DNA of 64,000 nucleotides from Branchipolynoe longqiensis (taxonomy: Eukaryota; Annelida; Polychaeta; Phyllodocida; Polynoidae), in contig CM059203.1 in the NCBI GenBank assembly GCA_030323885.1, positions 1-64,000 on the forward strand, written 5' to 3'. A program made the position numbers and the translations under genes. The stretch's first letter is position 1; the number at the start of each line of letters is the position of its first letter. This document shows positions 18,117-61,720 of this stretch, one piece after another. The notes below the pieces were generated by a model that did not search any database, was not told where the DNA came from, and saw only the letters and a list, made by a program, of their open reading frames with translations.

Positions 18117-18615
18117 NNNNNNNNNNNNNNNNNNNNNNNNNNNNNNNNNNNNNNNNNNNNNNNNNNNNNNNNNNNNNNNNNNNNNNNNNNNNNNNNNNNN
18201 NNNNNNNNNNNNNNNNNNNNNNNNNNNNNNNNNNNNNNNNNNNNNNNNNNNNNNNNNNNNNNNNNNNNNNNNNNNNNNNNNNNNNNNNNNNNNNNNNNNN
18301 NNNNNNNNNNNNNNNNNNNNNNNNNNNNNNNNNNNNNNNNNNNNNNNNNNNNNNNNNNNNNNNNNNNNNNNNNNNNNNNNNNNNNNNNNNNNNNNNNNNN
18401 NNNNNNNNNNNNNNNNNNNNNNNNNNNNNNNNNNNNNNNNNNNNNNNNNNNNNNNNNNNNNNNNNNNNNNNNNNNNNNNNNNNNNNNNNNNNNNNNNNNN
18501 NNNNNNNNNNNNNNNNNNNNNNNNNNNNNNNNNNNNNNNNNNNNNNNNNNNNNNNNNNNNNNNNNNNNNNNNNNNNNNNNNNNNNNNNNNNNNNNNNNNN
18601 NNNNNNNNNNNNNNN
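18117..18615. other. Assembly gap (499 N)
   Basis: Unknown bases. The gap lies between the major capsid gene and a 41-bp tandem array, so it is probably a satellite collapse, and its true length is uncertain. The 3' end of the capsid gene and the right end of the Polinton, if present, must be here. Confidence 0.98.
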
Positions 18616-19391
18616 GACAATTAAAGCTCCAGTTTAAACAAGGTTGTGGGTAGTTAGACAATTAAAGCTCCAGTTTAAACAAGGTTGTGGGTAGATAGAC
18701 AATTAAAGCTCCAGTTTAAACAAGGTTGTGGGTAGATAGACAATTAAAGCTCCAGTTTAAACAAGGTTGTGGGTAGTTAGACAATTAAAGCTCCAGTTTA
18801 AACAAGGTTGTGGGTAGATAGACAATTAAAGTCCAGTTTAAACAAGGTTGTGGGTAGATAGACAATTAAACTCCAGTTTAAACAAGGTTGTGGTAGATAA
18901 ATTAAAGCTAGTTTAAACAAGGTTGTGGGTAGATAGACAATTAAAGCTCCAGTTTAAACAAGGTTGTGGGTAGATAGACAATTAAAGCTCCAGTTTAAAC
19001 AAGGTTGTGGGTAGATAGACAATTAAAGCTCCAGTTTAAACAAGGTTGTGGGTAGTTAGACAATTAAAGCTCCAGTTTAAACAAGGTTGTGGGTAGTTAG
19101 ACAATTAAAGCTCCAGTTTAAACAAGGTTGTGGGTAGATAGACAATTAAAGCTCCAGTTTAAACAAGGTTGTGGGTAGTTAGACAATTAAAGCTCCAGTT
19201 TAAACAAGGTTGTGGGTAGTTAGACAATTAAAGCTCCAGTTTAAACAAGGTTGTGGGTAGATAGACAATTAAAGCTCCAGTTTAAACAAGGTTGTGGGTA
19301 GATAGACAATTAAAGCTCCAGTTTAAACAAGGTTGTGGGTAGATAGACAATTAAAGCTCCAGCTTGAACAAGGTTGTGGGTAGTTAGACAA
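18616..19391. repeat. 41-bp tandem array
   Basis: About 19 copies of a unit containing GACAATTAAAGCTCCAG, TTTAAACAAGG and TTGTGGGTAG; a few copies near 18830-18910 carry small deletions. The last unit runs directly into the terminal repeat of the next MITE (TTAAAGCTGCATTATCC), sharing ATTAAAGCT, so the array may have grown from the edge of that transposon. Confidence 0.9.
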
Positions 19392-19737
19392 TTAAAGCTG
19401 CATTATCCAAAGACATTTTCAAAACCAAAACAATTATCTAGATTTGACTGCACAAATCGGATGTAGGCATAGGTGCACTTATTAAACATTTGTTGCTGCA
19501 TAGAAGGAAGCGCTAAGACACGTTAATAGAAGCTGTTATTGCTGAAGCCTAGGTTGCCAGTATTTTGAATAAAATGGTTGATTGGTTGTTAGTTTTACGT
19601 CCTGGCAACATCTAAGGTTATATAAAGACGGGGGAATTTAAAATAAAAGTTACTAAAGTAGATTATAATGATCAAATCTAATGTATTTATTTAAGAAAAT
19701 TGCAGAAGCTCAAAAACACCGGATTATGCAACTTTAA
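19392..19737. mobile_element. MITE family b (TIR TTAAAGCTGCATTATCC)
   Basis: It begins TTAAAGCTGCATTATCC and ends GGATTATGCAACTTTAA, an imperfect inverted repeat. The interior shares text (GGTGCACTTATTAAACATTTG, GAAGCCTA, TTATTTAAGAAAAT) with copies near 27488, 37231, 49672 and 53211. A SINE family 1 tail (TTACGTCCTGGCAACATC) sits inside. No coding capacity. Confidence 0.65.
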
Positions 19738-21352: not shown

Positions 21353-22605
21353 CCCTGCGCACGACCAAGTCAACTGGCAATATACGAAGCGCGTGGGATG
21401 CCATTTCACGAAGCAAAACGACAAGTGCAAGACCCTTGTGTCCTTCCAGATTCTTGGAGCAGCGAAAGCCAACTGGTCCCACCAGGTGCATAGCCAGGTT
21501 CTAAACTTTGGAAAGCGCAAGCGCATAAAAAAGGGGCCATGACGCATACCAAGTTATTTCAAATTCATTATACATTTTAATTTTGTATTTAACATCAAAA
21601 CACAAAGATTTTACACTTTTAAAGGAAGTACACGATTGTTATTTTGTATTTATAATTTTTGTGAAACAAGGAAGACGCAACTTTTATCGCACACGAGAAA
21701 TAAAGAGTTAAAGAAATTGTTGAAAAGGGACCACATTTGAAGAATGCGCAATGCGATAATGTGAAATTAGAATCTGTCAGGAAGCCTAGAGCTTTAGAAG
21801 ACAAACTAACTATTCATGGCGGTTTAACTAACTAACTAATGGCGGTTTAACTAACTAATCTTCAGTTTATTACTACCACACGGTGGCGGTCTCGACTACG
21901 CTGACCCTTGCTGCGTTAGAAGGACCAGCAGGTGGCAGCACGCTAGTGGGGCGAGCGGTCCCAATGGTGAATCGTTCCACGCCCTCCTAACGCCCACCCC
22001 ACCCCCATTGCAGGTTACCCGTTACCTGGGTTTGCGATGCCAAGACAGTTCTATTCTGACCTACATGGAATAAACCAAGAAGGAACCCGAAGACTGAAGC
22101 ATTAACGGGGTGTCGGTCCCTCACTTATTTACCCCAAAGACAGAAGCTGGTCCAGCACAACAAATCACAACTGACTGTCTTTTCAAAAGTGGATCAATTG
22201 TCTAACTACCCACAAGCGCTAGATATTACTATCTATATTCACTAAATATTTACTATTCGCTAAATATTACTAAAATAACCACAGTCAAGAACATCAACAA
22301 TATTTAGCGCAGAACTGCTCAAACAAAATCCATGCGATACATTGTCCAATGTTATAGGGAGAACCAATCCCTCGCCACTGGTTGCAGCTGAACTATACAT
22401 GTATTGTGACGTCAGACAGAAGCGACAGGTTGAAGCACAAACTTGATAAAGTATCCATAAAATGGCTTCAATTCACTATTATTGAAATGAGGCTTGGGAT
22501 ATGTTCCTTGCTGGAGGGTGGAGTGGATTATGATACCGTTATATTGCAGTGGATTGCTTGTGCAAAACGCGCTGATATAATTAGTGGCGCGTCGGCTCAA
22601 GCTTG
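21353..22605. other. Intron sequence, no gene seen
   Basis: Mixed unique sequence with a short duplicated ATGGCGGTTTAACTAACTAA near 21815-21860. A CTCF-like motif at 21925 is listed separately. No exon of Trio or other gene recognised. Confidence 0.5.
21925..21938 (+). promoter_or_regulatory. CTCF-like motif
   Basis: CCAGCAGGTGGCAG matches the 14-base core CCASYAGRKGGCRS at every position. Binding is inference. Confidence 0.5.
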
Positions 22606-23475
22606 AGGCAGCGTTATTTCATAAGGGAACTCTACCACGTTGTCTGAGTGTTCCCCCGGCTTACATGACTCTCACACCTGAGAGGGGACATTGAGGTAGC
22701 GTTATTTCATACAGGAACTCTACCACGTTGTCTGAGTGTTCCCGGCTTACATGACTCTCACACCTGAGAGGGGACATTGAGGCAGCGTTATTTCATACAT
22801 GAGCTCTACCACGTTGTCTGAGTGTTCCCCGGCTTACATGACTCTCACACCTGAGAGGGGACATTGAGGCAGCGTTATTTCATACAGGAACTCTACCACG
22901 TTGTCTGAGTGTTCCCCGGCTTACGTGACTCTCCACCTGGAGGGACATTGAGGCAGCGTTATTTCTACATGAGCTCTACCACGTTGTCTGAAGTGTTCCC
23001 CGGCTTACGTGACTCTCACACTGAGAGGGGACATTGAGGCAGCGTTATTTCATACATGACTCTACCACGTTGTTGAGTGTTCCCCGGCTTACGTGACTCT
23101 CACACCTGAGAGGGGACATTGAGGCAGCGTTATTTCATACAGGAACTCTACCACGTTGTCTGAGTGTCCCCGGCTTACGTGACTCTCACACCTGAGAGGG
23201 GACATTGAGGCAGCGTTATTTCATACAGGAACTCTACCACGTTGTCTGAGTGTCCCCGGCTTACGTGACTCTCACACCTGAGAGGGGACATTGAGGCAGC
23301 GTTATTTCATACAGGAACTCTACCACGTTGTCTGAGTGTCCCCGGCTTACGTGACTCTCACACCTGAGAGGGGACATTGAGGCAGTGTTATTTCATACAT
23401 GAGCTCTACCACGTTGTCTGAGTGTCCCCGGCTTACATGACTCTCACACCTGAGAGGGGACATTGAGGCAGAACG
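22606..23475. repeat. 86-87-bp tandem array
   Basis: About ten copies of a unit with ACATTGAGGCAGCGTTATTT, GAACTCTACCACGTTGTCTG, TCCCCGGCTTA and GACTCTCACACCTGAGAGG. CTCTCACACCTGAGAG can fold as a short hairpin. No relation to a nearby exon was found. Confidence 0.9.
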
Positions 23476-30848: not shown

Positions 30849-30926
30849 CTCGAACCCGCTGAGCATGGACAGGTGCATGGCGTCGTTTGCCTTCTTCGGT
30901 ACGTTCAACATAACCTCCAGGCCGTC
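30849..30926 (-). CDS. TRIO: Trio-like RhoGEF, late DH-domain exon
   Basis: 78 nt, 26 codons, phase 0. The acceptor on - is TGTTTGTCTTGTAG before GACGGCCTGG; the donor is TTCGAG/GTAAAG. The peptide contains DGLEVMLNVPKKANDAMHL, matching the DH domain of Trio/Kalirin GEF1 just after the conserved region 3 helix. Its first 28 bases together with the acceptor are copied about nine times in the tandem array just upstream. Confidence 0.95.
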
Positions 30927-30929
30927 CTA

Positions 30930-31490
30930 CAAGACAAACACGCAAACCCGTTTACATCCTGTATGTTCAACATAATGCTGTACTATAAGACAAACACACA
31001 AACCCGTTAACAACATGTACGTTCAACATAACCACCAGGCCGTCCTTCAAGACAAACATGCGAACCTGTTAACAACATGTACGTTCAACATAACCACCAC
31101 GCTGTCCTGCAAGACAAACACGCAAACCCGTTTACAACGAGTACGTTCAACAAAACGCTGTCCTACAAGGCAAACATGTAACCCCGTTTACAACCGGTAC
31201 GTTCAACATAACAACCACGCCGTCCTACAGGACAAACACACAAACCCGTTAACAACTTGTACGTTCAACATGACCACCAGGCTGTCCTACAAGACAAACA
31301 CGCAAACCCGTTTACAACCTGTACGTTCAACAAAACGCTGTCCTACAAGGCAAACATGTAACCCCGTTTACAACCGGTATGTTCAACATAACAACCAGGC
31401 CGTCCTACAGGACAAACACACGAACCCATTAACAACCTGTACGTTCAACATAACCACCAGGCCATCTTACGAGACAAACATGTAAACCCG
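30930..31490 (-). repeat. Tandem array copying a 3' splice site and exon start
   Basis: About nine units (62 bp, some about 55-57 bp). On the Trio strand each contains CTTGTAG or a close variant, then a copy of the start of exon 30849-30926 (GACGGCCTGG...ATGTTGAACGTAC, 28 nt in the complete units), then a spacer with GTTTGCGTGTTTG. The units begin near 30957, 31015, 31076, 31139, 31196, 31258, 31320, 31376 and 31438. The array borders the true exon directly. Confidence 0.9.
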
Positions 31491-32384
31491 TTTATACCCG
31501 TCTTACCAACCAAAATACAATTACAACACTTTTTCAAAACATCATGTAATTTGTTTTTCAAGCCATCATGTAATTTGCAAAAGTCTTCAGTTGCACTTAA
31601 AGTGTTTTGGTTGCGAATTTGTATCTCTATTTATACCCAAATCATGCTCATAGATCAACTTCACATTTCCTACTCACATGTAAACATTTAGGGCTTGCGA
31701 GACTGACCCGCAATTCGGCTAACTTGTAGGACAACAGCTCCACATTCACCCAGACTTAGTGAATATCTGCAGATCCCGTCCTAACACCTGGGTGTGTGCC
31801 TTGATTATATAAGGCACGACACTGCATGACTCAGACTCAAGTCGAAGACTACGTGTCTGCCACCTTGGTTCTTCCATCTTTGCGATTGAACCTGATAGAT
31901 CAGGCTTGGTGCGATCACCGCCTTTGTTCATTTTTTTTGTAACTTTGTAAACCCTCTAGCGCTTGCGGGCACCCAACTTTGATTATTGTGTTTCAAACAT
32001 AATGAACTGATGTGAAATGTATGTGTAAGTCTTCACTCGAACCTCTACTATCCGCGTTGATATGACGACACGAGAGTGAGTACCGGCTCAAGTCGGCTGG
32101 TATAGTCCACGAAGATGACAAACAAACTCAGAATGTAATATACGAATGATGTCACGGGTGGGATTCCCTCATCACATGACCTAATATCGTTCCCCACAAC
32201 CAGGGAACACCGGGAACCCCTTATTTAGGTTGCACTCACACTCGCCATTGTGGCACTCTCCCATCACATATGCAGTTACACAAACCGAAAAGGTGTGCTT
32301 GGAGAGCATTTGTCGCAGTACAGTTCCAGTCTCAAAGGCCTATACCGGGTGCATTTAAATATCGATAAGCATTCTGCGGCCTAC
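31491..32384. other. Intron sequence with an unnamed dispersed repeat
   Basis: Text near 32110-32340 (GGTGTGCTTGGAGAGCATTT, GGGTGGGATTCCCTCATCAC) recurs in reverse near 51430-51480 and 51880-51990, indicating a dispersed repeat. No additional exon recognised. Confidence 0.45.
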
Positions 32385-32519
32385 CTTGATTTCCCCTTTT
32401 CCCTCCTCACAACAGGAGAGCAGGTCTTTGAGCAGGAGCTGGTACTTGGTAATCCGCTGTACCGGCTTGATTAAATAAGAAGCTATTGCGCCACTCAGCT
32501 CATGTTTTCTTTGATGCTC
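32385..32519 (-). CDS. TRIO: Trio-like RhoGEF, DH conserved region 3 exon
   Basis: 135 nt, 45 codons, phase 0. The acceptor is TTTTTCTTACAG and the donor is ATCAAG/GTAGGC. It codes [17 protein letters not shown], the most conserved helix of Dbl-homology domains, which contacts the Rho GTPase switch regions. The neighbouring CCEEGKGE is typical of Trio/Kalirin GEF1. Confidence 0.97.
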
Positions 32520-33059
32520 CTGTAAGAAAAACAACACAAAACATACAAAATGGTCATATCTGCATCATGTACTAACATTCTAACCTCCTCCTTTCAAATT
32601 CTCGTGCTAATCTCCCTTTGTAAAAAGAAAAGAAGAAAAAAAGAAATCCTCTTGAAAGAAGCACATCTTAATTCATGTGTGTTCTTCCCATCTGTCGGAG
32701 ATTATATCTTTTACAGAAATTCCTCTTTTATCGCCCTTCTTAAAAAGAAAGAAAGAAAAAAGACCCACTTGTAAGTAACATGTCTTAATCTGTATTCTCA
32801 TCTGTGTGTCGACCACTTATTTTTGACCAAAACAAAATCAGGAATTTTTCCCTAGACCTTGTGTAAAAGTCCACCGTAGAATTTTACAGATAACAAGTCA
32901 ACATTTGTGGTTCAAGATATTATCCTGTATATGGAAATAACACTGTTACAAAAGCGTATTGAATTTACGTGCTGGTATGTACAGAGAAATGATCGAACTG
33001 AGCTGTATATATTATATATACGCTACACAAACTAGTCCTTGTAACTGGAATACGAGGCA
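32520..33059. other. Intron sequence, no gene seen
   Basis: Unique intron sequence with two similar A-rich stretches (AAAAAGAAAAGAAGAAAAA near 32622, AAAAGAAAGAAAGAAAAA near 32743). It holds no supportable coding frame. Confidence 0.5.
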
Positions 33060-36000
33060 CCACATGTAACCTAGCACACATCAAACCTAGCAACACATAC
33101 ATCAAACCTAGCAACATATACATCAAACAAACCTAGCAACACATACATCAAACCTAGCAACACATACATCAAACCTAGCAACACATACATCAAACCTAGC
33201 AACACATACATCAAACAAACCTAGCAACACATACATCAAACAAACCTAGCAACACTTACATCAATCCTAGCAACATATACATCAAACCTAGCAACACTTA
33301 CATCCAACCTAGCAACACTTACATCAAACCTAGCAACACATACATCAAACAAACCTAGCAACACTTACATCAACCCTAGCAACACTTACATCAACCCTAG
33401 CAACACTTACATCAAACAAACCTAGCAACACTTACATCAACCCTAGCAACACATACATCAAACAAACTTAGCAACACTTACATCAACCCTAGCAACACCT
33501 ACATCAACCCTAGCAACACTTACATCAACCCTAGCAACATATACATCAAACCTAGCAACACATACATCAAACCTAGCAACACATACATCAACCCTAGCAA
33601 CACTTACATCAACCCTAGCAACACTTACATCAAACAAACCTAGCAACACATACATCAAACAAACCTAGCAACACTTACATCAAACCTACCAACACTTACA
33701 TCAACCCTAGCAACACTTACATCGACCCTAACAACACATACATCAACCCTAGCAACACATACATCAAACCTAGCAACACATACATCAAACCTAGCAACAC
33801 ATACATCAACCCTAGCAACACATACATCAAACCTAGCAACACATACATCAAACCTAGCAACACTTACATCAACCCTAGCAACACTTACATCAACCCTAGC
33901 AACACATACATCAACCCTAGCAACACATACATCAACCCTAGCAACACATACATCAAACCTAGCAACACATACATCAACCCTAGCAACATTTACATCAAAC
34001 CTAGCAAAACATACATCAAACCTAGCAACACATACATCAAACAAACCTAGCAACACTTACATCAAACCTAGCGACACTTACATCAAACAAACCTAGCAAC
34101 ACATACATCAAACATAGCAACACATACATCAAACAAACCTAGCAACACATACATCAACCCTAGCAACACATACATCAAACCTAGCAACACTTACATCAAA
34201 CCTAGCAACACATACATCAAACATAGCAACACATACATCAAACAAACCTAGCAACACTTACATCAAACCTAGCAACACATACATCAAACCTAGCAACACT
34301 TACATCAAACCTAGCAACACTTACATCAAACCTAGCAACACATACATCAAACATAGCAAGACATACATCAAACCTAGCAACACATACATCAAACAAACCT
34401 AGCAACACTTACATCAACCCTAGCAACACATACATCAAACCTAGCAACATATACATCAAACAAACCTAGCAACACATACATCAAACCTAGCAACACATAC
34501 ATCAAACCTAGCAACATATACATCAAACAAACCTAGCAACACATACATCAAACCTAGCAACACATACATCAAACCTAGCAACACATACATCAAACCCAGC
34601 AACACTTACATCAAACAAACCTAGCAACACATACATCAAACATAGCAACAGATACATCAAACAAACCTAGCAACACATACATCAAACCTAGCAACACATA
34701 CATCAAACCTAGAAACACATACATCAAACAAACCTAGCAACACATACATCAACCCTAGCAACACATACATCAAACCTAGCAACACTTACATCAAACCCAG
34801 CAACACTTACATCAAACAAACCTAGCAACACTTACATCAAACCTAGCAACACATACATCAAACATAGCAACACATACATCAAACCTAGCAACACATACAT
34901 CAAACAAACCTAGCAACACTTACATCAAACCTAGCAACACATACATCAAACCTAGCAACACTTACATCAAACAAACCTAGCAACACATACATCAAACCCA
35001 GCAACACTTACATCAAACAAACCTAGCAACACATACATCAAACATAGCAACAGATACATCAAACAAACCTAGCAACACATACATCAAACCTAGCAACACA
35101 TACATCAACCCTAGCAACACATACATCAAACCTAGCAACACTTACATCAAACCCAGCAACACTTACATCAAACAAACCTAGCAACACTTACATCAAACCT
35201 AGCAACACATACATCAAACATAGCAACACATACATCAAACCTAGCAACACATACATCAAACAAACCTAGCAACACTTACATCAAACCTAGCAACACATAC
35301 ATCAAACCTAGCAACACTTACATCAAACAAACCTAGCAACACATACATCAAACCTAGCAACACATACATCAAACAAACCTAGCAACACTTACATCAACCC
35401 TAGCAACACATACATCAAACAAACCTAGCAACACTTACATCAAATCTAGCAACACATACATCAAACAAACCTAGCAACACTTACATCAACCCTAGCAACA
35501 CATACATCAAACAAACCTAGCAACACTTACATCAAACAAACCTAGCAACACTTACATCAAACCTAGCAACACATACATCAAACCTAGCAACACATACATC
35601 AAACAAACCTAGCAACACATACATCAACCCTAGCAACACATACATCAAACCGAGCAACACTTACATCAAACCTAGCAACACTTACATCAAACAAACCTAG
35701 CAACACTTACATCAAACCTAGCAATACTTACATCAAACCTAGCAACAAATACATCAAACAAACCTAGCAACACTTACATCAAACCTAGCAACACTTACAT
35801 CAAACCTAGCAACACTTACATCAAACCTAGTCACACATACATCAAACAAACCCAGCAACACATACATCAAACCTAGTCACACATACATCAAACCTAGCAA
35901 CACATACATCAAACAAACCTAGCAACACTTACATCAACCCTAGCAACACTTACATCAAACATAGCAACACATACATCAAACCCAGCAACACTTACATCAA

Positions 36001-36494
36001 ACCCAGCAACACTTACATCAAACCTAGCAACACTTACATCAAACCTAGTCACACATACATCAAACAAACCCAGCAACACATACATCAAACCTAGCAACAC
36101 ATACATCAAACATAGCAACACATACATCAAACCTAGCAACACATACATCAAACAAACCTAGCAACACTTACATCAAACCTAGCAACACTTACATCAAACC
36201 TAGCAACACTTACATCAAACCTAGCAACACATACATCAAACATAGCAACACATACATCAAACCTAGCAACACATACATCAAACCCAGCAATACTTACATC
36301 AAACCTAGCAACACATACATCAAACATAGCAACACATACATCAAACCTAGCAACACATACATCAAACAAACCTAGCAACACATACATCAAACAAACCTAG
36401 CAACACTTACATCAAACCTAGCAACACTTACATCAACCCTAGCAATACATACATCAAACCTAGCAACACTTTCATGTAACCTAGCAACACTTAC
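33060..36494 (-). repeat. Tandem array of 5' splice-site copies (21-bp unit)
   Basis: About 150-160 units of 21 bp (some 25 bp). On the Trio strand each unit is TTTGAT, or a variant such as GTTGAT, followed by GTAAGTGTTGCTAGG or GTATGTGTTGCTAGG. This is the last six bases of exon 36495-36584 plus the first 15 of its intron. The first unit is the real splice donor itself. The 21-bp period explains the long open frames on -. The array is about 3.4 kb of consensus-like 5' splice sites. Confidence 0.95.
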
Positions 36495-36584
36495 ATCAAA
36501 GAAGGTGCCTCCGTGCGCCACCAGCAGCTGATTGGAGGCTGGCTTGTTTTTACAGTAAGTCACATAGATAGAGAACCGCTCCGC
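36495..36584 (-). CDS. TRIO: Trio-like RhoGEF, middle DH-domain exon
   Basis: 90 nt, 30 codons, phase 0. The acceptor is GTTTCTTTCAG and the donor is TTTGAT/GTAAGT. The peptide includes [18 protein letters not shown], matching the DH domain between conserved regions 2 and 3 of Trio/Kalirin. Its 3' end is the founder of the 3.4-kb splice-site array. Confidence 0.95.
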
Positions 36585-37019: not shown

Positions 37020-37680
37020 TTGTTTGTTTGGGGTTTACGTCCTAGCAACATCTAAGGTCATATCAGGACAGGTACCGACTTGTGACAGTGCACACTCATG
37101 GTGACTTTACAGTGCTACCCCACTGGGAGACCAGGCCACTGGCACCATGACCTGATATCCCACTCAGTCACATTGTCCTGACACTGAGCCAACCAGTCCT
37201 TGTCCTATCCTAATAATGCCGAACACCCGGTTTAAAAGCTGCATAGTCTGATGGAGATTCAATTTTGATCTAGAATTGTTGTAAATATAGTTTATTCATT
37301 GAATAAAGTCTTTTGTCAGTGCCGTGGCACTTGTCTTCCAGCCATGTGACAATACAGTTATTTACAATATATGCATATGTAGTCTGATATTGTCATTGAT
37401 TCCACATATCTAACTTAGATACTGAAGCACTTATTAAACATTTGTCGCCACATAGAAGGGAATACCGGGCAATGTAACAAAACCTCTTACTGAAGAAGCC
37501 TATGGTGCCTGAGGTTTGACGTGCTTGCCAAAGTTAATTTTGCATGTTTGCAATTCAAATATCTCAAAATTTAAAATAAAACTTACTTCAAACTAAAGTA
37601 AGGTAGATTATAGCGATCAACCTAATATATTTATCTCAGAAAATGACAGAAACTCAAAACCATCGGATTTTGAAACTTGA
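37020..37680. mobile_element. SINE family 1 body followed by MITE family b
   Basis: A SINE family 1 copy without head lies at 37028-37225 (TTACGTCCTAGCAACATC to CCTAATAATGCCG). It is followed at once by a MITE family b copy at about 37228-37680 (AAAAGCTGCATAGTCTGATG to CCATCGGATTTTGAAACTT). Confidence 0.65.
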
Positions 37681-45776: not shown

Positions 45777-46468
45777 CTAGAAACACCGCACAGAACAAAT
45801 CAACAAACTGTGTCCAATACACCGTAAAGAACAAATCAACGAACTGTCTGCAATACACCGTAAATAACACATCAACAAACAAACTCCAGGACAACGCACA
45901 AAACACCTAAACAAACAATCTGCAATCGCGAAAGTCGAGTCGCGAAAGTCAAGTTACGCATCCCTCATGACTCAGGTCACAGGAGACAACGGCTCATACT
46001 ACCACTTTTAGTTAAAGTCGTTTCTAACTACCACTTTGAGTCCTGGAAAAGAGTAGGCACGGACAAGCAGAATGTGGCTTGAGCTTTGTTTGCTGTCCGT
46101 TATTTATATCATATATATAATGTTATATAATATATTATATAACACATCATATAATATACATGCAGAAGCCAAATGCTAAGTACTGTGGACAAGTGAAAAT
46201 TCAGACGGACAAGCGAAACTCACACCAGACTTGTCCAGTGGACAAGTGACAAATGTTGCTTATTTCTATGACTGCTAATGAAACCAAGAAGGGGGAGTTA
46301 GTCAGTAAACAACACAGGATGCACACAACATACGACGCTCACTTGGTCGCACTGGTACCGCCAGTTACTGCTGGTTCCGTGAAGCTACCATTACAAGTCA
46401 GACGTAGCTGGTCACTGAGCCAATCTGACACCGGACTGAGTACAATTTCACTTTCCATTTTTGGTTTA
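45777..46468. repeat. Intron sequence with short tandem and AT microsatellite
   Basis: The roughly 50-nt repeat at 45785-45900 (see exon 45710-45776) and an ATATAAT-type microsatellite at about 46100-46155. No exon. Confidence 0.5.
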
Positions 46469-50495: not shown

Positions 50496-50935
50496 CTACA
50501 CTGGTAGCTGTGACCTACACTCTACAGGCCATGACCTACACCATGCAGACTGTGACCTATACCATGCAAGCTGTGACCTATGCTGGGCAGGCCATGACCT
50601 ATATGATGTAGACTGACCTACACCATGTAGAATGTGACCTACACTGTGTAGCATGTGACCTACACCGTGCAGACTGTGACCGATGCCATGCAGGCCATGA
50701 CCTACACTGGGCAGGCCGTGACCTACACCATGCAGACTGCGACCAATACCATGCAGGCCATGACCTACACTGGGCAGGCCATGACCTACACGATGTAGAC
50801 TGTGACCTACACCGTGTAGACTGTGACCTACACTGTGCAGGCCGTGACCTACACCGTGCAACCCGTGACCTACACCATGCAGCCCGTGACCTACACTACA
50901 GGCCATGACCTACACCAGGCAGATCGTGACCTACA
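50496..50935 (-). repeat. 21-bp tandem array with GTAGGTCA (sister array)
   Basis: About 20 copies. On the Trio strand units read GGTGTAGGTCACGGCCTGCA-like, the same consensus as the array at 52125-52939, about 1.2 kb away in the same intron. Confidence 0.9.
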
Positions 50936-52124
50936 CCACATTGGATTATGCAGCTTTAAGTTAAACTTGTAATAAACGTTCAATAATCAAACATAAACTG
51001 CACGAATAAAGGTTGAGTTCTGTTAGAGTTCAGGAGGAAGAAACTGAACTGAGAATTCACCTTAACGGCCGGTCAATTACACGTTAGTGGACGTAGGTGA
51101 ACGTAGTGGAGGCTAACCTAGTTGAACGTACCAGCGTCCGTACTGTAACGTATTTATCCGTACCGTAACGTATTTATCCGTACCAAAACCTGCCATACCT
51201 TAACATATTTCAACGTAGATTAACATACTTACACCACGTTTGACCCACGTTAGCCTCCACTACGTTCACCTCCGGTCAACTACGTTCACTAAGGCGTATG
51301 TGACTGGGGCATAACACTAAATAACACATAACTCGTCCGGCTGATTCAATAAATGTTCAATTTGACAAGAATCATGAAATCGAATATACCAACGAGATCT
51401 ACTGATATTAAAGGGAACCTGTATAGCTCACAGACTGCAGCTGTACTCGGACAAATGCTCTCCAAGCACACCTTTGCTTAGTTTTTCAGTTGATGTAACC
51501 GAGTATGTGGGGGGGGGGGCGGGGGGGGGGAGAGTGTTGAGGTTGGTTGCTCCTGCTGTGTTGTAGTTAGTCCAGCAGCGCTGACAGGGCTTCTCCTTCT
51601 TTTTTTTTGTTTGTTTGTTTGTTTGTTTGTTTGTTTAAAGACACCCCAGACCAAAAAGTAAACATCGGCTATTAAGACAACCCTATAGAAAAAGGGTCAG
51701 AATTTGCAATCGAAAGTGCTAACAATTTAGGTCAAATGCTTAGTTATCAAAACCAGCTAATTTTGGAGTGAATACTTTTTTTAATATTGTAGATTAATAG
51801 ATTTTAAAAGTAGAATCGAGAGCTTTCTGTGGCCGCCATCTTCGTTTCTCCTTTCTGTGGGGAACCCCTCTAGGTCATGTGATGAGGGAATCCCACCCAT
51901 GATGTCCTTCATACATTACAAACCTGAGCACTCTCCCCCCACATATTCTATTACATAAACTTTTAAAAACTAAGGAACGGTGTGCTTTGAGTGCTTTTGT
52001 CAGTGTACTATTCAGAGTTGGTTTGTTTCTCAGGGAGGGCAATGCCGGGCGACTTTAATTGATAAGTGTGCTACAATTAAAATAATGTGCATCCGGCTTG
52101 GTTTGCTTTGTTGTTGGGAAATGA
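50936..52124. mobile_element. Intron with fold-back element and repeat pieces
   Basis: A MITE family b end (GGATTATGCAGCTTTAAG) lies at about 50943. A fold-back element lies at about 51075-51290 whose arms include AGGTGAACGTAGTGGAGGCT and its reverse complement. A copy of the repeat near 32110-32340 lies at about 51420-51480 and 51780-51990. GTTTGTTTGTTTGTTTAAAG at about 51606 is a SINE-2-like tail. No exon. Confidence 0.5.
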
Positions 52125-52939
52125 GGCCATGACCTACACATTGGCCGTGACCTACACCATTCAGGCTGTGACCTACACCATGCAGGCCATGATCTTCACC
52201 ACATTGACCATGACCTACACATTGGCCGTGACCTACACCATTCAGGCTGTGACCTACACCATGCAGGCCATGATCTTCACCACATTGACCATGACCTACA
52301 CAATGCAGGCCATGATCTTCACCACATTGACCATGACCTACACATTGGCCGTGACCTACACCATTCAGGCTGTGACCTACACCATGCAGGCCATGATCTT
52401 CACCACATTGACCATGACCTACACATCGGCCGTGACCTACACCATTCAGGCTGTGACCTACACCATGCAGGCCATGATCTTCACCACATTGACCATGACC
52501 TACACATTGGCCGTGACCTACACCATTCAGGCTGTGACCTACACCATGCAGGCCATGATCTTCACCACATTGACCATGACCTACACAATGCAGACCGTGA
52601 CCTACACCATGCATGCCATGGCCTACACCATACAAGTCGTGACTTACATTGTGCAGGCTGTGACCTACAAAATGCAGGTCATGACATACACCATGCAGGC
52701 AATGACATACCCCCTTCAGGCCTTGACCTACACCATACAGACCGTGACCTATACCATACAGAGCATGACCTAAACCATGCAGGCTTTGACCTCCACCATA
52801 CAGACAATGACCTACACCATGTCGGCCTTGACCTAGACCATACAGACTGTGACCTACACCATACAAGTCATAACCTACAACATACAAGTCATGACCTACA
52901 CCATACATGCCGTGCCCTACACAAGTTCCTGTGACCTAC
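52125..52939 (-). repeat. 21-bp tandem array seeded at a 5' splice site
   Basis: About 38 units. On the Trio strand the array starts at the donor GAT/GTAGGTCACAGG of exon 52940-53122, and units repeat GGTGTAGGTCA followed by ...GCCTGCAT-like text. A higher-order unit (with GTCAATGTGGTGAAGATCA on -) is repeated about six times at 52180-52590. Frames on both strands are repeat translations. Confidence 0.9.
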
Positions 52940-53122
52940 ATCGTGCGTGAGTCCGAGCGTCGTCTCCAGTTTGAGGCGGTACTTCTCCATGCGAGACGAG
53001 AAGTCCTTGTACCGCTTGTCGACGGCCGCCACCCATTGCTTGATGTTGGCTGCGTGCGCATGTCCCTTCTCGACCAGCGAGTCGGCCAGCTGCAGCAGCA
53101 GCTTCACCTTCTCGCGCGTCTC
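52940..53122 (-). CDS. TRIO: Trio-like RhoGEF, last spectrin-repeat exon
   Basis: 183 nt, 61 codons, phase 0. The acceptor is TTTGTTCCGCAG and the donor is CACGAT/GTAGGT. The peptide includes KLLLQLADSLVEKGHAHA and WVAAVDKRYKDFSSRMEKYR, the end of the spectrin-repeat region of Trio/Kalirin. It is the most 5' exon I can identify with certainty; the upstream spectrin and Sec14 exons must lie beyond or hidden in 53-64 kb. Confidence 0.95.
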
Positions 53123-55883: not shown

Positions 55884-56218
55884 AATAAAGCTTTTTTTTA
55901 TTTAATGACGCCTCTAGAGCTCATTGATTTTCGTATCATTGGCTATTGGACGTCAAACATATGGTCATTCTGACATATTTCTTTGGAGGAAACCCGCTGC
56001 CACCACCTCGGCTTTTCTTTCCGATAAGCAGCAAGGGGTCTTTTATATGCACTTTCCCACAGAAAGGAGAGCACATAGCACAGCCTTTGATGAACCAGTT
56101 GTGGACCACTGGTTGGAACAGAAAATAGCCCAAACTGCAAATGTGTCCACTGAGAAGGATCGATAGGATGACCGACACCTTCACAAGTGGAAACGCTACC
56201 GCCTGAGCTGCATACCGC
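55884..56218 (-). mobile_element. tRNA-headed SINE family 2
   Basis: GCTTTTTTTTATTTAATGAC lies at the left. The head on - reads GGTATGCAGCTCAGGCGGTA. Confidence 0.75.
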
Positions 56219-56264
56219 CCCCCCCCCTGCCAAGAGGCAGGCAAACGACACTTCTCCCAGTTAC

Positions 56265-56504
56265 CTGCTTCTGCTGCTGATGCTCCGGCTGCTGTTGCTG
56301 TTGCTGCTGTTGCTGCTGCTGTTGCTGCTGTTGCTGCTGCTGCCTTGGTGACACGCGTGCGCGCCGCGTGGTGGCGCCACCGTGCTTCCGGTAGCGGTCG
56401 TCAAGGTGCCAGAACCAGGTGGACTCGCGGCGCGACCGGCGATTCACCCAGCTGTCACCGGCCGGGAACAAGCGGCCCGCCCAGCCCCGCCACCGACCCG
56501 CCAT
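56265..56504 (-). CDS. Candidate poly-Gln exon, function unknown
   Basis: 240 nt, 80 codons, open from ATG at 56504 to a donor CAGAAGCAG/GTAACT, in phase 0. A CTAG directly before the ATG could be an acceptor. The peptide has Arg-rich and Trp-rich parts (SWVNRRSRRESTWFWHL), then about 18 Gln from a CAG/CAA repeat (about 56284-56341), then PEHQQQKQ. GC content is much higher than the surroundings. It could be an alternative or upstream exon of the - strand Trio gene, since the phase would fit exon 52940-53122. I do not recognise it in Trio, and it may be unrelated. Confidence 0.35.
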
Positions 56505-59332: not shown

Positions 59333-59495
59333 CATGTTGGGAGTTTTACGTCCAGGCAACATCTAAGGTCTTATCCGGAAGGGTACCGACTTGTGACAGG
59401 GCGCTCATGGCGACTTTATAGTAATGCACCACTTGAAGACCATGCCGCCAGCACCATGACCTGATATCCCACTCAGTCACATTATCCTGACAAGT
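59333..59495 (-). mobile_element. SINE family 1, partial
   Basis: Tail and body only (TTTTACGTCCAGGCAACATC to CACATTATCCTGACA); it merges into the next array. Confidence 0.7.
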
Positions 59496-59899
59496 GTGTA
59501 ATATAATCCTTACAAGTGTGTAATATAATCCTTACAGGTGTGTAATATAATCCTTACAAGTCTGTAATATACAGTCTTCACAAGTGCATAATGCAGTCCT
59601 TATACATACAAGTCTATAATACAATCCTTTGCATACAAGTCTGTAATATGCAGTCCTTTCACGCCTGTAATATACAATCCCTATACTCTGAAAAAAAAAG
59701 ACAGTTCCTACAAATCTGTAACATAGTCTTGACGAGTCTCTAATGGAGTCCCTATGCATCCAAGTCAGAAATACCCATCCTTTACAAGTCTGTAAACAAG
59801 TCTTTAATGTAGTCCTTTACAAGTCCATAATGTAGTCCATACAAGTCTTTAATGTAGTCCTTTACAAGTCCGTAATGTAGTCCCTACAAGTCTTTAATG

Positions 59900-60219
59900 C
59901 AGGGATGAAAGTGATCTCTGGGAAAAAAAGCGGAAATGCTGATATTCTCCCATAGGTTTAACACTGTCAGGGAATCACAGAAAATTTCCGGAAGTCGTGT
60001 TTCATATATATTGGTATACGCTGATAGTGCTGCGCCATTTGAAGCATGTATAGTGGTAGCATACGCTGATAGTGCTGCGGCGTTTGAAGCATTTATTAGT
60101 GGGATATGCTGATAGTGTTGCGGCGTCTGCACCACGTATTAGTACAGATCTACGCTGATGGTGCTGCGGGATTGAAAAATCCTGGAAATCCGTGCAAACG
60201 CGGAGATCTTTCATCCCTG
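59900..60219. mobile_element. MITE family a with 6-bp target duplication
   Basis: It starts CAGGGATGAAAGTGATCTC and ends GGAGATCTTTCATCCCTG. TTAATG flanks both ends, a probable target-site duplication within the array. An inner tandem (ATACGCTGATAGTGCTGCG) is repeated about four times. Confidence 0.75.
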
Positions 60220-60302
60220 TTAATGTAGTCATTACAAGACTGTAATATAGTTCATACAGTCTGCAATGTAGTCCTTACAAGTCTACAATGTAGTCCGTAC
60301 AG

Positions 60303-60645
60303 TCCGTTGGTTGGTTGGTTGTTGGAGTTTCACGTCCTGGCAACATCTACGGTCATATCAGGACGGGTACCGACTTGTGACAGTGCGCACTCATGGCGAC
60401 TTTATAGTGCTGCTCCACTCGGAGACCATGCCACCAGCACCATGCATGATATCCCACTCAGTCACAGTATCCTCACACTGAGCCAACCAGTCCTTGCCCT
60501 ATCCTATTAATGCCGAGCATCTGGCTAGGAAGCGACATGTATACATTTTCAAGTAATTGGTTTAACACGACCAGGGTTCGATCCCATGTGTTCGAATCCC
60601 ATGATCTACCAAAACGGGAGACAGGCGCTCAACTCATTCTGGTCC
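60303..60645 (-). mobile_element. tRNA-headed SINE family 1
   Basis: The tail GGTTGTTGGAGTTTCACGTC is at the left. A degraded head on - contains GGTTCGATCCC-like B-box text near 60575. Confidence 0.7.
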
Positions 60646-61720
60646 CCAGTTTGAACTGCAGTCCTTACAGTCTGTAATGTAGTCCCTACATTTTACAGTC
60701 TGCAATGTAGTCCTTAAAGTCTGTAATGCAGTGATTACAGTCTGTAATGTAGTCATTACATTCTGTAATGCAGTGCTTACAGTCTGCAATGTAGTCCTTA
60801 AGTCTGTAATGCAGTGCTTACAGTCTGTAATGTAGTCCCTACAGTCTGTAATGCAGTGCTTACAGTCTGCAATGTAGGCCTTACAGTGTGTAATGCAGTG
60901 TTTACAGTCTGCAATGTCGTCCTTACAGTCTGTAATGTAGTCCCTCCACTTTACAGTCTGCAATTGTAGGTATGCGGGTATTGCAGTACCTCTGAAACCT
61001 TAGGTGTTAAATACCTCAGGGAGTTTGACGCCCCTGCCTTGCAAAGTTGTAAACCACTGCCTTGTGGTACAGGTTCTTGATAGAACTAAAGGCTAAGGGA
61101 GTAAACCCTAACAGAAAACCATGTTACCGTGGCAGCATTAAGGGTGGTGATGAATGGAACTCCCAACATCTCCCGACCAGCCACTGCAGGGACAAATAGT
61201 TTGCGCCTGTCTTGACGTGTTCTTGCCGGTGTGAGACCTCTATTTGCTCCCCGAGAGAGTGCCGCTAGTAACTTGCAAAAGCCAGCAGCACTTCAACACT
61301 TTGCAAGCAGCTTTTATGAAATGTCCAACCGCATGAAATAACATCACTCTCACAGCAGAGATCTAATTGGAGAGCGGCGGTTAACTAATGAAAGCAGTCT
61401 TTGTCACATTGCGACTGACAGCATGATGATGATGATGATGATGATGATGAATGTAGTCCTTACAGTCTGTAATGCAGTGCTTACAGTCTGTAATGTAGTC
61501 CTTACAGTGTGTAATACAGTGCTTACACTTTAGAGTGTGTAATGTAGTCCTTACAGTCTGCAATGCAGTGCGTACAGTCTGTAATGTAGTCCTTACAGTG
61601 TGTAATGCAGTGCTTACACTTTAGAGTGTGTAATGTAGTCCTTACAGTGTGTAATGTAGTGCTCACAGTGTGTAGTGCAGTGCTTACACTTTAGAGTGTG
61701 CAATGTAGTGCCTACAGGTG

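Follow-up and report, generated by a model that had tools for sequence, protein, structure and literature searches.

Why does an intron of a Trio/Kalirin gene begin with 156 repeat units that resemble the 5' splice site at which that intron starts, and which of these sites would be used for splicing? The gene lies in the window, i.e. the whole 64-kb stretch of DNA that was analyzed, where part of it, comprising 11 exons, was placed on the minus strand by translation and splice signals. All 11 exons were recovered by tblastn when seven homologues were combined, although no single search set of exons was complete for each homologue. No upstream exons of the gene were found between 53.1 and 64 kb by tblastn with the seven homologues. 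The joined exon translation aligned with the solved Trio DH-PH chain 1nty_A over 310 residues, with a score of 477.7 bits. The features on which the question turns are the following.

36495-36584, minus strand: exon E6, 90 nt, in the DH1 domain of Trio/Kalirin; it matches Kalirin through FFD, and the repeat unit has its exonic part from the six final bases of the exon, TTTGAT.
32385-32519, minus strand: exon E7, the authentic acceptor partner of E6, which continues EHQRKHEL.
32520-36494, minus strand: intron 6, 3975 nt, phase 0, approximately 86% of it array.
36480-36500, minus strand: the authentic donor and unit 0, TTTGAT/GTAAGTGTTGCTAGG, with 6 exonic and 15 intronic bases.
33070-36500, minus strand: the main donor-type array of 156 units, parsed as 115 units of 21 bp, 40 of 25 bp and one of 16 bp.
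36459-36479, minus strand: unit 1, TTACATGAAAGTGTTGCTAGG, in which the donor GT is lost, the sole case among 155 complete units.

The alignment to the Trio DH-PH chain 1nty_A runs without a gap across FFD/EHQ, the join of E6 and E7. The end of E6 and the start of intron 6 therefore lie as first placed, with intron 6 in phase 0, and the original prediction that the exon at 36495-36584 ends in TTTGAT was independently borne out by the protein alignment. In 238 homologues (drawn from the best 120 of 397 and the best 120 of 1582), the two residues for which TTTGAT codes read FD in 141 cases and FE in 73. Because these residues are common among homologues, the exon end is old, and it is the exon that seeded the array. 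This agrees with the proposal that the unit was copied from the true 5' splice site and indicates that copying went from exon to intron.

The host of the array appears to be a lophotrochozoan gene. Among the named homologues, the best identities to the joined exons were all lophotrochozoan (Lineus 76%, Lingula 74%, Octopus 73%), while vertebrate sequences among the best 120 of 397 and the best 120 of 1582 were at most 70% identical. No sequence with a cephalochordate name was present among the 120 and 120 homologues listed from these same two sets. An amphioxus host was considered and rejected on these grounds. In a tree of 26 sequences, the window sequence grouped with one assembly protein (89/91) and then with a brachiopod and a nemertean (82/85), its own placement being below the strict support level. 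It fell outside a supported clade of 12 sequences, ten of them named molluscs, which holds all of the named molluscs in the tree. A mollusc host, initially suggested by a resemblance of the SINE-like repeat in the window, thus finds no support in this tree.

The array was predicted to begin at the splice site and to comprise about 150-160 copies of a 21-bp unit, made of TTTGAT and the intron start GTAAGTGTTGCTAGG, with nearly every copy keeping a consensus-like GTAAGT or GTATGT donor. Each of these points held. The array spans the exon-intron boundary and starts at the exon end, with a unit of 6 exonic and 15 intronic bases; 156 units were counted, and Tandem Repeats Finder (TRF) reported 33078-36500 with period 21 and 155.4 copies. 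Counting the junction itself, the array holds 32 exact copies of the junction 21-mer, which is absent from the rest of the window on both strands. There are 36 distinct unit sequences among the 156, and they occur in mixed order. The donor GT is present in 154 of the 155 complete units, and the donor hexamer is GTATGT in 85 units and GTAAGT in 59 (144/156). The other hexamers are GTATAT (five units), GTATCT (two) and GTATTT, GTAAAT, GTAGGT and GAAAGT (one each), in addition to one truncated unit. What did not hold was the expected regularity, since the 40 units of 25 bp, which carry an extra TTTG, mean that the steps are neither all 21 nt nor all in frame.

The edges of the array bear on how it grew. 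The odd units are the edge ones, namely the truncated last unit and unit 1, with its lost GT. Two copies of the 13-mer GCTAGGTTACATG are present in the window, one where unit 0 ends and unit 1 begins and one at the far edge of the array (33063-33075). The same neighbor at both edges is expected of growth in place. Within the array a 270-bp segment is exactly duplicated, with an offset of 356 bp, which is what unequal exchange, if this was the mechanism, would leave. Loss of the GT from unit 1 was also considered as a result of selection against the nearest competitor of the authentic donor; an edge unit that escaped homogenization fits too, and no claim is made.

The possibility that the E6 array is the only junction-derived array in the window was considered and rejected, as a clear acceptor array was present at E8 and a weaker case for a donor array at E1. 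The features concerned, together with a repeat near E3, are listed here.

30849-30926, minus strand: exon E8, DGLEVMLNVPKKANDAMHLSMLSGFE, whose own acceptor recurs in the 62-bp array.
30899-31494, minus strand: acceptor-type junction array of about 62-bp units (180-bp higher order), each with the 3' splice site together with some 28 bp of E8.
52940-53122, minus strand: exon E1, ETREKVKLLL...LGLTHD, with the donor GTAGGT.
52124-52939, minus strand: probable donor-type array at the E1 donor (GAT/GTAGGTCACAG), with diverged 21-bp units and an intronic copied part.
50507-50938, minus strand: second block of the E1-donor 21-bp family, at the other end of intron 1.
45783-45880, minus strand: repeat of 36 bp in 2.7 copies, with its end 7 bp away from the acceptor of E3; it covers pyrimidine tract sequence, not the AG.

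Nine copies of the E8 acceptor array lie upstream of the authentic acceptor, and the AG is in register in eight of the nine. Both boundary types are hit in one gene, with a donor array at E6 and an acceptor array at E8. In the case of E1, the 21-bp repeat at both ends of intron 1 bears GTAGGTCA, and the 11-base GTAGGTCACAG was found exactly seven times in the block adjoining E1 and twice in the second block. However, the 21-base junction test at the E1 donor found no copies, which makes the E1 case weaker, as it rests on the 11-base GTAGGTCACAG match and adjacency. Derivation of this array from its donor junction is probable on the strength of the sequence match, less firmly so than for E6 and E8.

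Other repeats were seen, most of them on the minus strand. An 86-bp array of 10 copies (22603-23471) has a unit with an acceptor-like CTCTCAG/G and a donor-like CAC/GTAAGC, and no exon was recognized nearby. Upstream of E1, several arrays of 20-28 bp with related, donor-like TTGTAAGGACT-like units occupy 59484-61717, and an open frame with a polyglutamine run (CTG/CAG repeat, 56265-56343) lies at 56199-56504. An assembly gap of 499 N (18117-18615) adjoins a 41-bp array at 18616-19399. A SINE-like repeat is present in five copies, at 37171, 29835, 23724, 59480 and 40709, all of them on the gene's strand.

Tandem arrays cover 32-38% of the gene's intron bases, depending on the threshold, and 3% of its exon bases. 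An array lies within 10 bp of 3 of the 21 junctions when arrays of at least 2 copies are counted, and of 2 of the 21 when at least 3 copies are required. Two nulls were run on the 31 distinct arrays, both of them post hoc, after the data had been seen. When whole arrays were placed at random inside introns, a mean of 0.25 arrays had an edge within 10 bp of a junction, as compared to the 3 seen (P 0.002). When a single repeat period was thrown at random, the mean was 0.80 junction-containing arrays, as compared to 2 seen (P 0.19) or 3 with E1 counted (P 0.04). The latter null used the best-scoring TRF period, which was sometimes a higher-order one (180 for E8), and its mean of 0.80 is therefore if anything too high. 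The excess of array edges near junctions could mean that junctions favor arrays, although the two nulls disagree. The match of the E6 unit to its junction, by comparison, does exceed chance.

These observations are best explained, with a probability of roughly 75%, by the E6 array being a "mirage" minisatellite that grew from the 5' splice site and is tolerated, with the first donor doing the splicing. The 5' splice site would first have been copied by a short tandem duplication that straddled the last bases of E6 and the first of the intron, and slippage and unequal exchange would then have expanded it to 156 units. The relation between unit and junction, the signs of birth in place and the internal duplication are observed in the DNA, and exchange is the presumed mechanism. 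The outermost donor would still join E6 correctly to E7, and the duplication would have been tolerated for this reason. The decoys would be bystanders, with exon definition on the 90-nt E6 and its own donor presumably keeping splicing mostly at unit 0. The introns of this gene are rich in minisatellites, of which the E6 array is one among many, and its presence would not require that splice sites be specially targeted.

The strength of the decoys bears directly on this tolerated-bystander reading. Duplex energies were predicted for pairing with the 5' end of U1. The authentic donor gave a predicted energy of -7.3 kcal/mol, and 58 of the 143 decoy cores (GTAAG or GTATG) were predicted to pair with U1 at least as well. 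The remaining 85 cores were predicted at -3.5 (83 cores) or -1.9 kcal/mol (two cores). The claim that many decoys are near-identical to the true donor was thus correct with regard to predicted pairing. In a competition between sites of equal strength the downstream donor can prevail, and with decoys of equal predicted strength the accurate choice of unit 0 is therefore not guaranteed. The predicted equality of 58 of the 143 decoys with the authentic donor, together with the use of downstream units in IFI6 (PMC4526556), weighs against the decoys being bystanders.

The reading frame limits what use of a decoy could produce. Of 155 candidate donors, including the authentic one, 42 are in frame by length and 4 are also free of stops (0, +42, +63 and +84). 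The first in-frame stop lies at +105 nt past the authentic donor, and the array is dense in stop codons whichever of the three frames is read (31-38 per kb). Three decoys, at +42, +63 and +84 nt, could therefore add 14, 21 or 28 residues, the first of these inserts being a 14-residue peptide. The original prediction of a ladder of seven-residue additions did not survive, as the stop at +105 and the 25-bp units leave only these three alternatives. Occasional use of later units, if it occurs, would by this arithmetic yield the three extended products from those decoys and a premature stop or a frameshift from the rest.

It is unlikely that the array is functional as a set of donors. Under this explanation the roughly 143 GTAAGT or GTATGT copies bind U1 or draw the spliceosome downstream, either lowering productive Trio mRNA or titrating U1. 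The 58 decoy cores whose predicted U1 pairing is no weaker than that of the authentic donor are consistent with it, as is the density of stops, since use of a decoy past +84 would give premature stops. However, no contrast in conservation was found for the donor GT among the unit positions; positions -5, -2, -1, +3, +6, +8 and +12 do not vary in any of the 155 complete units. Selection on the decoy GT was accordingly rejected, since the GT is no better kept than several other positions and there is no sequence sign of selection on the donor as such. With regard to titration, the transcripts of one gene are unlikely to titrate an abundant snRNP. The amphioxus junction repeats are reported to leave splicing undisturbed (PMC3087553, PMC3902484), which also argues against a functional donor array.

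Alternative in-frame donors, as in IFI6, are a little less likely still. The first units would in this case give DH1 variants with 14, 21 or 28 extra residues, and the three open and in-frame positions at +42, +63 and +84 would allow it. The IFI6 minisatellite does give three mRNA species from repeat donors (PMC4526556). However, only 4 of the 155 candidates are usable, the authentic donor included, and an insert would fall inside the conserved DH domain. Among the homologues listed (best 120 of 397 and best 120 of 1582), which include no close relative, an insertion exactly at the E6/E7 junction was seen in none of 120 of the full-length class and in 1 of the 118 shorter ones that span it. 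This single insertion of 23 residues reads like a retained intron and, judged by its sequence, is unrelated to the repeat.

A length-dependent rheostat is doubtful to a slightly greater degree. More units would lead to more splicing to stop-ending decoys, so that allele length would tune a RhoGEF, and many such donor and acceptor arrays would be expected genome-wide. Beyond the number of decoys and their predicted strength, nothing favors either a rheostat or U1 titration.

A SINE origin, which is very unlikely, would be compatible with growth of a tolerated minisatellite from the splice site. It would derive the intronic half of the unit from the tail of the SINE-like repeat, three of whose five copies in the window have TGTTGCTAGG. 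This motif is the last ten bases of the array unit and recurs four times beyond the array, always on the gene's strand; three of these copies are in SINE-like tails, and one (26712) is in a similar tail with no recognized body. However, the match is of 10 bp only, an equally good score was reached by 5.2% of control intronic 21-mers and 3.3% of shuffled units (5000 of each), and TTTGAT/GTAAG is left unexplained.

That the assembler multiplied or shuffled the copies of the E6 array is more improbable again. The perfect 270-bp internal duplication could be read in this way, and the 499-base gap at 18117-18615 marks the assembly as imperfect. The 36 distinct unit types in mixed order argue against an artefact, as do similar arrays at another junction and throughout the introns. 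Assemblies also more often collapse repeats than multiply them.

The original suggestion that the array, through many predicted U1-complementary sites in the long intron 6, guards the transcript from premature polyadenylation (telescripting) is scarcely credible, since neither AATAAA nor ATTAAA occurs in intron 6 on the gene's strand, which leaves no canonical target there for suppressing intronic polyadenylation (16 AATAAA and 24 ATTAAA occur on that strand over the whole gene span), and the longer introns E2-E3, E4-E5 and E8-E9 (4.2-6.0 kb) hold no copies of their own donor junctions.

The copy number makes this locus a natural experiment in which one 90-nt exon is set against 58 decoys whose predicted U1 pairing equals or betters that of its own donor. 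If only unit 0 is used in cDNA, this would argue strongly that position and exon definition outweigh donor strength; if other units are used too, the array would be a length-variable splicing switch. Donor and acceptor junction arrays in one gene also provide material for models of intron growth and of intron gain by tandem duplication.

The phenomenon itself has precedents, although the original prediction knew of no described case. A limited search of open-licence literature turned up published cases from amphioxus and a single human gene only, and the phenomenon is now seen in a lophotrochozoan. The minisatellite of the human gene, IFI6, reportedly begins at an exon end and has 12-bp units. 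In the amphioxus reports, "mirages" are minisatellite-like tandem duplications of exon-intron boundaries, named at Adh3 (PMC3087553), with further cases in troponin C and PGBD5 (PMC3902484). The globins BflGb6 and BflGb9 have mirages at 5' and 3' boundaries and keep regular splicing (PMC3087553), and the junction repeats are reported not to disturb normal splicing (PMC3087553, PMC3902484). Many units keep their AG/GT signals, Adh3 units measure 10-72 bp, and cluster boundaries escape homogenization (PMC3087553, PMC3902484). The E6 array resembles the mirages in its boundary-spanning tandem units, in the splice signals kept in many of them and in the fact that either 5' or 3' boundaries are affected. 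Its odd edge units and the restriction of GCTAGGTTACATG to the two edges likewise match the escape of edge units from homogenization. It differs in its lophotrochozoan Trio/Kalirin host, in having 156 units as compared to the 6 and 3 described for the BflGb6 haplotypes, and in the presence of more than one affected junction in the gene.

Human IFI6 (6-16) has a minisatellite with multiple splice donors, of which two downstream units are used, giving three mRNA species (Turri, Cuin and Porter 1995, via PMC4526556). As in IFI6, a minisatellite in the transcript supplies repeated donors, and the E6 array starts at an exon end, as the IFI6 one is said to do. However, two downstream units serve as donors in IFI6, whereas only three E6 decoys would be usable in frame. 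The Rogers model, in which introns are gained via tandem duplication across AG/GT sites (as discussed in PMC3087553), shares with E6 the duplication of segments bearing splice signals within a gene. It differs in that no new intron has arisen at E6, all copies being within one existing intron. No junction minisatellite from any lophotrochozoan was found in the limited search of open-licence literature, in which molluscs were little covered. As far as this search extends, the lophotrochozoan host, the copy number and the further junction-derived arrays in the same gene are new here.
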